Assembly (NCBI GenBank): GCA_002633315.1 | Contig: NWBN01000006.1 | Location: 1 to 64,000, forward strand | DNA length: 64,000 nt | DNA from: Bacteroidales bacterium Phil6 | GTDB taxonomy: Bacteria > Bacteroidota > Bacteroidia > Bacteroidales > F082 | Direction of reading: 5' to 3' | In this document: piece after piece, positions 30,635-32,860 of the stretch | Position numbering within the stretch: position 1 is the first letter of the stretch | Layout: each line of letters starts with the position of its first letter | Notes under the pieces: model-generated | What the model saw: only the letters and a program-made list of their open reading frames with translations | The model's database searches: none | Told to the model about the DNA's origin: nothing | Made by a program: the position numbers and the translations under genes

Positions 30635-30945
30635 TCATCTAAAGACATATATTATTTGGTTCTTTTTAGTCCTTTTCAATATCTCAAAGATACAGTCTAT
30701 TATCATAAAGAAAGTCAATGTCAATATTTTCGACAATCGCAATATACTTGTTATGACAATTAATCAGATAATGAACCAATAAAGTATAACCACGGTTAAA
30801 GAGATATTTATTAAGCAGCAAAAATATGGACACAATGGTTACAGATTGTATTTATTATCACATCATATAGCAATAGTATTACAGTAATAATATTTTTCAG
30901 TCAATTTTTATAAATAAATTTGCAGTTAATCAAATTCTTCATATA

Positions 30946-30975
30946 TTTGCCATATAATTACACATAATAATTTTG
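30946..30975 (+). promoter_or_regulatory. Full Bacteroidota promoter before the structured RNA
   Basis: TTTG at 30946-30949, an 18-bp spacer, then TAATTTTG at 30968-30975 match the -33/-7 consensus. The predicted start near 30980 gives a leader of about 365 nt to the gene at 31348, or a separate RNA. The -33 TTTG is itself the end of a second -7-like box (30942-30949). Confidence 0.65.
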
Positions 30976-31044
30976 CCTATGAAATATTGACAATGATTTG
31001 ATACATATACTTTAAAATAGAGAAAGCGTTTTTAACATTATTCT

Positions 31045-31260
31045 TTCTATCTATAAGTTTGGCGACCATTAGTTCCGATATGAATAAATGTAAAAAATGC
31101 TCATGTATAATGCGTGGGCTTTTTGGTTATTCATCGGAACAGGTTACGCCAAACACCTTAGATAGAAGAATTCCTAAAAGTACCGCGCTTTTTTGTATAT
31201 GTAGTTTACCGAACAAGGTACTTACGGAGTAACCTGAAAAGCCGTATAAATGAGTAGGGA
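31045..31260 (+). ncRNA. Unidentified structured RNA with predicted pseudoknot
   Basis: The sequence folds by hand into two domains. Domain 1 is a rod made of P1 (31045-31053/31159-31167, 9 bp), P2 (31057-31064/31147-31154, 8 bp, GTTTGGCG/CGCCAAAC), P3 (31072-31079/31133-31140, 8 bp, GTTCCGAT/ATCGGAAC), P4 (31082-31087/31127-31132) and an apical hairpin (31092-31124). Domain 2 has P6 (31171-31176/31255-31260), P7 (31178-31184/31217-31223, AAGTACC/GGTACTT) and P8 (31223-31227/31242-31246). The P8 loop carries TAACCT (31230-31235), exactly complementary to the AGGTTA internal loop (31141-31146) of domain 1. I do not recognise it as tmRNA, RNase P RNA, SRP RNA or a riboswitch class I know. A 6S-like or Bacteroidota-specific RNA, or a cis-regulatory leader, remains possible. 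Confidence 0.6.
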
Positions 31261-31347
31261 GAAAGTAATATGAGAAGACGTTTATATTATCACATAAAAT
31301 TTAAGATTCGAATATAAATATCTTCATAACAAATCAATAACTAACTT

Positions 31348-31896
31348 ATGAAAAAACATTTATTATCACTGATATTATGTTATCTCTTAACATTTACAAT
31401 ATCGTCACTCTGTGCACAAAACAGCACATTAATTCCAACCACAGCAATCAGTAATATGCCAATAATAACAATAAAAGACATGAATCTTGGTCGGAATGAT
31501 TATGTAATATTAAAATCAATCTCAGCATCTGCAGTTGTTAATTCTAACAATAAAAGATCGCAAAGAAGCATATATGAAGAAAACAACGAATTTAAATTAG
31601 TTTATGATATTATAAAAATTGACGGGAAACGTTATTTGGAATATGAATCTTGTGAAGGAATAATACGTTTAGGTTATCTTGGTTCTACCAATATTTATAA
31701 TTCCGACTCTGATTATCTTCCTGCAGAAGAAATTGTCAGACGATTAGCATTGTACAGATTAATAAATTTAGCAAAAGAATATGGTGCTGATGCACTATTT
31801 GAACCAACAATAACAACAACAGCAACTTCTTCGGGAAAAACTCTAATATATAACACCGAGGCTACAGCAAAACTTATTAAAATCATAAATAACTAA
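31348..31896 (+). CDS. Exported protein of unknown function
   Basis: A 182-residue protein with a signal peptide (about 1-23, ending SSLCAQ). The mature part is a small alpha/beta protein: two strands (ITIKDMNLGRNDYVILKSIS), a middle strand set (YDIIKIDGKRYLEYES), a helix near 130-150 (ADEALF-type, here YGADALFEP) and a Thr-rich last strand. I do not recognise the family. The layout recalls small Bacteroidota periplasmic proteins of DUF6567 type, but only weakly. It is the first gene after the structured RNA and lies 4 bp upstream of a lipoprotein gene, so the two are probably one operon. Confidence 0.6.
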   Translation: MKKHLLSLILCYLLTFTISSLCAQNSTLIPTTAISNMPIITIKDMNLGRNDYVILKSISASAVVNSNNKRSQRSIYEENNEFKLVYDIIKIDGKRYLEYESCEGIIRLGYLGSTNIYNSDSDYLPAEEIVRRLALYRLINLAKEYGADALFEPTITTTATSSGKTLIYNTEATAKLIKIINN

Positions 31897-31900
31897 CAAC

Positions 31901-32860
31901 ATGAAAAAACAATTTTATTTATCAGTATTATTATGCGCATTCTTTTTTATAGGATGTGTGTCTTACAAACCAGTTCCGATACAAGAACCCCAATCTTATA
32001 CTTTGGTTTTAAATCTCAACGAATTACCACCATCTGATTTATTTATAAATTTAGATTATGGTATTAGACTTAACATATTAGATAAACGAGCAAACAATGA
32101 TATTTTGAATAAATATGACGCAAATATTAATGTTCCAAAACCTAATGTAAGTACATATCCAGATATTGTATCATTTGTTTCTGAAAGTATGAAACAGTAC
32201 ATGCAAACAATGGGATTTGTTTTAGATTCTGATATTAATACTGACTATCTACTTCAAATTGAAATTACGCAATATCAATTAAGCTATCTCTCCGGTATGG
32301 GATGGATGGGAACAGTTTGTTTTGATATGAAAATATTCGACAACAATAAAACTCCGATATATCCGAATACAGCTATCACAGGAAGAACTTCTGTTAAAGC
32401 AAACATTGATGATATTATCAATGCCTCCAATGCATTAAATAATGCTTATTTGAATGCTTTGAAAGATATTGATTGGAATAGAGTTGCTTATTTTCTAAAA
32501 AGAGCGTATTCTCCAGAAGATGAAAAAAACAAACAAGTAACAGGTAGTGGCAATACATCTTTAGAGCACACTATTATACGTTGGTATGTCGATTCTGCGC
32601 CCAAAGGTGCTGACGTCTTTTGGAGAGTTGTTTCTTCAACTCCAGATGTAAAAAATACCAATCAGCTATATTTAGGTTCAACTCCTTATGAAAGTACTGA
32701 ATCTTTTGACAAAGGTCTGACATTTAATAATTCAGGAGATGTTCAGATCGAAATTTCTTGTGAAAAAGCCGGATATGCTCCTCAAAAGAAAAGATTTAAT
32801 TTACGACAGGCAATAGAACAAAAAGAAATTTCCACCAAATTTAATTTAATTGAAGAATAA
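31901..32860 (+). CDS. YajG-like lipoprotein with C-terminal PEGA-like domain
   Basis: A 319-residue lipoprotein (lipobox FFFIGC, Cys about residue 19). Residues about 30-205 resemble YajG/LptE-like auxiliary lipoproteins: SESMKQYMQTMGFVLDSD, then TDYLLQIEITQYQLSYLSG. The C-terminal part (about 222-319) starts RWYVDSAPKGADVFWRV and contains YLGSTPYESTESF, the pattern of a PEGA-type surface beta domain. Together this suggests an envelope-anchored accessory protein. No specific function can be given. It is the second gene of the unit beginning at 31348. Confidence 0.65.
   Translation: MKKQFYLSVLLCAFFFIGCVSYKPVPIQEPQSYTLVLNLNELPPSDLFINLDYGIRLNILDKRANNDILNKYDANINVPKPNVSTYPDIVSFVSESMKQYMQTMGFVLDSDINTDYLLQIEITQYQLSYLSGMGWMGTVCFDMKIFDNNKTPIYPNTAITGRTSVKANIDDIINASNALNNAYLNALKDIDWNRVAYFLKRAYSPEDEKNKQVTGSGNTSLEHTIIRWYVDSAPKGADVFWRVVSSTPDVKNTNQLYLGSTPYESTESFDKGLTFNNSGDVQIEISCEKAGYAPQKKRFNLRQAIEQKEISTKFNLIEE

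Follow-up and report, generated by a model that had tools for sequence, protein, structure and literature searches.

The reading that we prefer, at a probability of about one half, is that the structured RNA in the window (the whole stretch of 64,000 nucleotides that was analysed; every feature located below lies on its + strand) is one copy of a covarying leader family of Bacteroidia and is likely an attenuation switch. Comparison of the copies delineates the following predicted components: (i) a conserved domain made of P1, P2 or two small hairpins (H1 and H2) with complementary loops, and P3-P5, located before co-directional genes; (ii) two mutually exclusive helices on one strand, one of them (PK) set against a U-run, together with P7, a helix formed with the CC that PK also uses; and (iii) a helix PX that, in the order, encloses the whole element.

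In the mechanism that we propose, the strand of the P5 tip hairpin would pair either within P5 or, as PK, with the strand that precedes the U-run. The formation of PK beside the U-run would result in a transcription stop or pause; conversely, if P5 is kept, read-through would follow, with subsequent formation of P7 and PX and expression of the surface or exported protein genes downstream. The input would be something that stabilises the conserved domain, a ligand or a protein, and an ORF of one to six codons, where present, would add a translation signal. If the switch reading is true, this rod family would represent a gene-control element that belongs to no known class and is widespread in Bacteroidia, a main group of gut and rumen bacteria.

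The rod, its covariation and its distribution

The first-pass annotation described a rod of 9, 8, 8 and 6 bp, and all four helices are present: P1 (31045-31053/31159-31167, 9 bp, supported by covariation and by the fold z-score), P2 (5' strand GTTTGGCG, 31057-31064/31147-31154, 8 bp; double changes at 7 of 7 model pairs, 98.7% of cells paired), P3 (31072-31079/31133-31140, 8 bp, 98.3% of the family cells paired) and P4 (31082-31087/31127-31132, 6 bp, 84.5%). The rod is continued by the P5 hairpin GCTCATGTATAATGCGTGGGC (31099-31119), for which there is family covariation in addition to the energies, and whose 3' arm is the switchable strand. The predicted fold of 31038-31173 has an energy of -53.5 kcal/mol, compared to a mean of -23.44 (sd 3.51) for shuffled sequences (z -8.56; 0 of 200 shuffles as good). 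The 3' half alone (31090-31347) does not stand out from its shuffles (z -1.76; 7 of 200 as good).

Alignments produced with MAFFT (A1, five copies; A2, four copies) misplaced the helices, and model-guided alignments were used instead. Covariation among homologues, which the first-pass annotation had proposed as a check, is extensive: in the 97 model-aligned rows of alignment A9, which was fitted to the model structure so that its figures lean toward that structure, double changes were found at 39 of the 40 rod pairs, 94.6% of cells are paired versus 68.4% after shuffling, and the covariation score is 0.669 versus 0.196 for shuffled rows and 0.061-0.098 when the pairs are slid by 1-3 columns. 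In an earlier, 87-row alignment, double changes occurred at 35 of 40 pairs, and the score was 0.580 versus 0.194.

Outside the model, H1 (UGAAA/UUUCA) and H2 (AGGU/ACCU) form small hairpins around the P2 strands. For the two together, 95.0% of cells are paired versus 93.3% in shuffles, with double changes at 7 of 9 pairs versus 1.8 (0 of 500 shuffles as high); the support is moderate because the columns are mostly invariant. By eye, H2 variants include GGCA/TGCC, GGTT/AACC and GGCT/AGCC. In the window, H2 (AGGT 31141-31144/ACCT 31155-31158, flanking the P2 3' strand; 96.1% of cells paired) is intact and H1 is weak, and three inner pairs of P1 share bases with H1 and H2. Thus, P2 in the relatives may not continue a straight rod but arise from the loops of H1 and H2 kissing within a four-way junction.

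The distribution of the family was assessed with two covariance models. The first (R1) was built from two relatives (L003 and L009, alignment A5) with the window left out, and it found the unseen window with 41.6 bits (E 1.8e-7). Of 99 genomes of the genus, R1 matches 82 at E <= 0.1, and 75 of these reach E <= 1e-5 (table count), a tally that includes the genome of the window and both training genomes; there are up to nine matches per genome, and opposite-strand second matches of the palindrome may be counted twice. The second model (R2), refined from 87 copies including the window, matches 121 of 393 genomes (68 of 206 genera, own genus included) of the order and 24 of 296 genomes of the phylum sample, 22 of the 24 being from other orders of the class; both searches were run with strict filters, at which weak matches are lost. 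In the genome of the window, R2 finds three copies, on contig C27 (132.3 bits, a training copy), in the window (63.1 bits, also a training copy) and on contig C26 (49.5 bits). R2 found none in 12 further genomes, 11 non-Bacteroidota by title and one Owenweeksia, which were picked because the pattern, but not the model, matched their loci; this search included no positive genome.

A search at the DNA level gave matches in only 8 of 60 genomes, own genome included. One of them, L002 from another family of the order, has a 72% DNA match over the rod and the 3' part; it lacks an R2 match at E <= 0.001 and is absent from A9. Partial matches occur elsewhere, including a second copy in the same genome as the window. 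A pattern search in named genomes returned at least 118 stretches, which is about the chance expectation for the pattern by our own estimate; the full R1 element is present in 64 of the 80 stretches listed and runs off the end of one more, and it is present in 2 of 20 viral stretches. Among the matches listed, the carriers are by title Bacteroidota, mostly Bacteroidales, and include Paludibacteraceae, Bacteroides, Alistipes, Prevotella, Muribaculaceae, Odoribacter, Rikenellaceae, Salinivirgaceae and others. A record titled Synergistales (L126) also carries a copy, with 105.9 bits for R1 and 126 bits for R2, which was trained on it; this copy is a mislabelled bin or a transfer. The 11 loci with other non-Bacteroidota titles, among the matches listed, have no model match.

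A copy of equal score and equal length was found in a 109-kb IMG/VR contig (L216) and in Prevotella sp. P2-180 (L093), suggesting that one copy may lie in a prophage. Three rod copies lie on one strand within 8 kb in another genome (G060:C14:16601-24148), so that the leader seems to be locally multiplied there.

Downstream genes and the 5' region of the leader

An ORF of at least 60 aa starts within 700 nt of the rod in 138 of 146 leaders (near-identical copies included). This next gene is co-directional in 132 of the 138 cases and opposite in 6, compared to 76 co-directional and 64 opposite among 140 previous genes, and its start codon lies at a median of 98 nt after the rod; 7 of the 146 leaders overlap an ORF as predicted by a crude gene caller. 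The nearly fixed direction supports one of the two options offered in the first-pass annotation, namely, that the RNA is the leader of the downstream genes.

Under a crude rule for signal peptides and lipoboxes, 101 of 132 next proteins carry an export signal, versus 285 of 716 ORFs of at least 100 aa in the same loci, next genes included. The 31 of 132 next genes without a signal by this rule include those for ECF sigma factors and, after the C26 copy, for a GNAT-like acetyltransferase. The 85 different downstream proteins were compared to Pfam and NCBIfam; among the 25 of 52 and 25 of 153 families listed, respectively, are BspA-type LRR (8), SusC/RagA (5), ECF sigma factors (2) and others. 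In the window, gene 1 (31348-31896, 182 aa) has a signal peptide by the crude rule and no match in Pfam or NCBIfam; its homologue follows the same RNA in L229, from another family of the order (37% identity over 158 columns, E 4e-26). Gene 2 (31901-32860, 319 aa) has an N-terminus that by eye resembles a lipoprotein signal. A leader present in several copies per genome before BspA-like LRR proteins, SusC/RagA and lipoproteins would be a handle on surface control and a candidate for ligand search.

Upstream of the rod, the first-pass annotation recognised a promoter with the -7 box TAATTTTG (30968-30975), 70 nt before the start of the rod model. The box is present and belongs to the same position class as those of 12 of 94 leaders, where TAnnTTTG lies at -75 to -60; it is, however, only one of three candidates, the others being TAAATTTG (30915-30922, at -123 from the start of the rod model) and TATATTTG (30942-30949, at -96). 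TAnnTTTG at -125 to -86 was found in 42 of the 94 leaders, and the window belongs to both sets. Altogether, the 94 leaders contain 85 such sites on the + strand versus 27 on the reverse strand; in a narrower scan that ended before -70, the motif was found in 48 of 94 leaders versus 17 of 94 on the reverse strand.

The box TAATTTTG overlaps a conserved context, TTTGCCTATG, of a predicted minimal ORF, ATG-AAA-TAT-TGA (30979-30990; conserved context TTTGCCTATGA). The region 30946-31347 was described earlier as devoid of a protein gene, which holds for long ORFs but misses this short one. An ATG in a TTTGCCTATG-like context was found in 67 of 98 leaders, with 31 of 98 lacking it by the rule used, and in 64 of these 67 a stop codon follows in frame within six codons; in 42 of the 64, it comes after one sense codon. 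After deduplication, an in-frame stop is present in 43 of 46 leaders, compared to 10 of 46 and 23 of 46 for the other two frames. The stop varies both in position and in identity (TAA, TAG and TGA all occur), which favours translation of the mini-ORF over pairing as the probable cause of this conservation. In the class-level copies, the mini-ORF is absent by eye, and the rod and the PK strand are kept.

These features bring up a different account of the leader, in which ribosomes on the mini-ORF would determine how the mRNA folds or how stable it is, and hence downstream expression. Besides the floating stop codon in the leaders with the conserved ATG, the geometry of the window is consistent with it, because the 5' strand of PX (TACATATAC, 31002-31010) begins 12 nt past the end of the mini-ORF. 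There are also reported precedents: tetQ of Bacteroides is listed as a translation attenuator (PMC5418344), and a two-codon ORF acts in cis on the axe-txe toxin gene (PMC8708949). The 31 leaders without the ATG, and the class-level copies in which the rod and the PK strand persist without it, argue against translation as the driver, and we regard this account as rather doubtful. Tentatively, both inputs could be joined in a Bacteroidia-wide two-signal leader, comprising a four-way junction with a loop kissing of 6-7 bp, a tip strand that is bistable between its hairpin and a long-range terminator spanning the folded domain, and translation of a two- or three-codon ORF as the second input. If this possibility is true, surface and exported proteins would be under the control of an RNA that responds to two signals.

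Mutually exclusive helices and the U-run

The attenuation switch that we prefer depends on the strands around the U-run, which in the window occupies 31189-31194, directly 3' of the PK strand CCGCGC (31183-31188). The latter is complementary to GCGTGG (31112-31117) of P5; across the family, the strand GCGUGG(GC) has two possible partners, one within P5 and the other, CCGCGC/GUCCACGC, immediately 5' of the U-run. P7 is predicted between AGTACC (31179-31184) and GGTACT (31217-31222), its CC being shared with PK. PX joins TACATATAC to GTATATGTA (31195-31203) with 9 bp, perfect in the window.

To these pairings we applied an own-versus-other test, in which the pairing of each leader's strand to its cognate partner region was compared with its pairing to the corresponding regions of other leaders (5000 permutations). 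A U-run was defined as four or more U or, as a last resort, an interrupted TTNTT-like run, and 93 of 97 deduplicated leaders have one 3' of the rod; L251, L254, L259 and L093, without a U-run by this rule, were excluded, leaving n = 93. All three pairings exceed permutation, with kinship handled by dropping copies at least 88% alike and nothing further: PK (rod tip versus the 8 nt before the U-run) scored 17.31 for own and 15.76 for permuted partners (z 9.1; 0 of 5000), P7 (the strand overlapping PK versus 8-60 nt after the U-run) gave z 8.7 (0 of 5000), and PX (the region 5' of the rod versus the 16 nt after the U-run) gave z 7.3 (0 of 5000). Three control pairings gave z of -0.1, -1.2 and 0.7. 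In an earlier run with 69 leaders, when L115 and L093 lacked a U-run by the rule then used, z was 7.7 for PK, 5.7 for PX, and 1.9 and -0.7 for controls. Visual inspection also suggested a pairing of AAAAAGCG, 5' of P1, to CGCUUUUU at the U-run, but this helix was dropped because several copies disrupt it.

PK uses the 3' arm of P5 in 86 of 90 leaders; therefore, P5 and PK are mutually exclusive, and in two thirds they are also close in energy. The mean energies are -11.6 kcal/mol for P5 and -10.7 kcal/mol for PK, and the difference is at most 3 kcal/mol in 59 of 90 leaders; in the window, the values are -9.5 and -10.5 kcal/mol. It should be noted that all these PK energies are for the bare duplex, with pseudoknot costs left out. 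A switch thus appears probable, as the first-pass annotation had suspected, with the difference that the strands which covary are not those it named but the 3' arm of P5 and its two alternative partners, the 5' arm of the same hairpin and the strand preceding the U-run.

Several results disfavour an attenuation switch. First, P5 with the following TTTTT (31099-31124) is itself terminator-like in the window, this being the one such site found versus 0.2 expected in shuffles; in the relatives, by eye, P5 is mostly followed by TTTAC instead. Second, the energy gap between P5 and PK exceeds 3 kcal/mol in 31 of 90 leaders. Third, 4 of the 97 leaders have no U-run, and in the 15 class-level copies neither PK (z 0.9) nor PX (z -0.9) is above permutation, the tip strand being nearly constant there. 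In addition, a terminator formed by PK would require a long-range stem across the 3' half of the folded rod, an unusual arrangement that counts against attenuation. The rod family also makes it testable whether a stem across a folded domain can act at a U-run.

The arm complementary to the tip stands directly before the U-run, with at least five PK pairs in 91 of 93 leaders, and a local hairpin of at least four pairs precedes the U-run in 33 of 92 leaders, so that some copies could use a plain terminator. Both features would also be expected of an independent small RNA whose 3' end is the U-run and whose terminator stem is PK or the local hairpin. Such an RNA is improbable given the constant direction of the next gene and its proximity, together with the covariation of P7 and PX, whose partners lie 3' of the U-run. 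The same facts, along with the lack of a 6S match, speak against the free or 6S-like RNA that the first-pass annotation had considered. A palindromic DNA repeat or the end of a mobile element, rather than an RNA, would be compatible with several copies per genome and with the scores that the reverse strand of some copies attains with the model; we consider it very unlikely because strand-specific G-U pairs are common, e.g., U-G in 69 of 97 rows at P5 columns 104/175, and because the orientation relative to the next gene is nearly fixed.

The 3' element and comparison with known systems

Downstream of the switch helices, a DUF805b-like element (RF02914) lies at 31224-31260, with 33.6 bits (E 9.4e-8) and thus below the gathering score of 35.6 bits; the copy on C27 of the same genome passes that score with 37.1 bits. 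The element has the DUF805b features, a hairpin with GAAAA and a GAGUAGG tail, and its alignment spans the whole model (positions 1-35 of 35), with one non-standard stem pair. In the genus, RF02914 was found in 76 of 99 genomes at E <= 0.001, in 65 of them above the cut-off, and a DUF805b-like string occurs within 260 nt after the rod in 21 of 146 leaders. DUF805 motifs reportedly stem from Weinberg 2017.

By eye, several DUF805b copies directly follow a promoter-like TAnnTTTG and shortly precede an ATG, and in some genomes of the genus several copies lie on one strand within a few kb (G025:C19, G024:C44, G065:C116). In DUF805b-like strings from the window and loci L011-L043, the loop base before CC can pair with the tail base after GG in 43 of 46 distinct strings, as G-C, C-G, T-A or T-G (shuffled mean 26.0; 0 of 5000 as many; shared ancestry uncorrected). 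Thus, DUF805b is likely an H-type pseudoknot of loop NCC with tail GGN, which is undrawn in the nested Rfam model. Another short conserved 3' element, CCGATGAGCCGATGGGATATAACCGGC-like, was seen between the rod and the start codon in L058, L059, L060, L065, L067 and L079, with variants in L055, L056, L066 and L081; by eye, it may be another small pseudoknot.

The pseudoknot of the first-pass annotation also involves this element. The complementarity of AGGTTA (31141-31146) to TAACCT (31230-31235) is real in the window, where both lie within the 8 perfect pairs of CAGGTTAC/GTAACCTG, and L091 has 7 pairs with a G-U; conservation was not found, with scores of 9.81 for own and 9.73 for between-leader pairs (2147 of 5000 permutations as good) in the 21 leaders with a DUF805b-like end, near-duplicates included. 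A switch in which AGGTTA/TAACCT competes via CAGGTTAC/GTAACCTG and GGCTTTT/AAAAGCC is the least probable account; AGGT is, moreover, one side of H2 in the family, and the pairing appears to be a feature of the window at most.

The claim that the RNA belongs to no known class agrees with a search of Rfam 15. At gathering thresholds, the window gave tRNA only, and the rod had no match in the window or in 40 further loci, i.e., 20 loci of the genus (one DUF805b there) and the C26 copy with 19 class-level loci (one tRNA there). In particular, 6S, tmRNA, RNase P, SRP RNA and the riboswitch models gave no Rfam match in the window and the 40 loci, nor did ARAGORN report a tmRNA in the window. Phe_leader, GibS, MicA, sxy and snoTBR17 appeared in the window under lax settings with E of 0.2-4.8, which is the chance level.

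A description of the rod family was not found in the passages covered of the literature on DUF805b, Bacteroidales structured RNAs, Bacteroides small RNAs and Bacteroidetes riboswitch candidates, and the word "Bacteroid" does not occur in the main texts of PMC11109978 and PMC8632094; the family may have been listed earlier without a name or function. PMC9723704 lists 64 structured 5' regions in a flavobacterium, not all of which have Rfam matches, and PMC7366714 mentions short ORFs in long 5' UTRs of B. thetaiotaomicron.

Among the systems that were compared, DUF805b RNA (RF02914, clan CL00115) covers the last 37 nt of the window RNA, and the rod lies outside it; by eye, DUF805b copies elsewhere are mostly near a start codon and without a rod. 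By its alignment, the 3' end of the window RNA belongs, or nearly belongs, to this known motif, and that piece is not new. HMP2_4205 is given by Fremin and Bhatt 2021 (PMC8040213) as a palindrome of 132 bp, mostly from Bacteroidetes, with a predicted terminator. It is reported near TPR genes, whereas TPR is absent among the families listed for the 85 downstream proteins; HMP2_4205, compared by description only, may or may not be the rod family. Bacteroides-2 and GUCCY-hairpin (Weinberg 2010, PMC2864571) are Bacteroidetes motifs without an Rfam number, but Bacteroides-2, again compared by description only, is stated there to occur in one sequenced organism.

The tetQ leader of CTnDOT has a very short leader ORF. 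This trait is shared by the window and by the 67 of 98 leaders with the ATG. According to PMC5418344, tetQ has an attenuator leader in Bacteroides; the genes under control are others, and it is set beside the rod family by description. The rod family matches no Rfam riboswitch; by sequence comparison, its resemblance to riboswitches and orphan candidates extends to a conserved domain, exclusive helices, a U-run, and several copies per genome before similar genes. Comparison of the copies thus points to two traits of the riboswitch kind, a leader position and mutually exclusive helices beside an expression signal.
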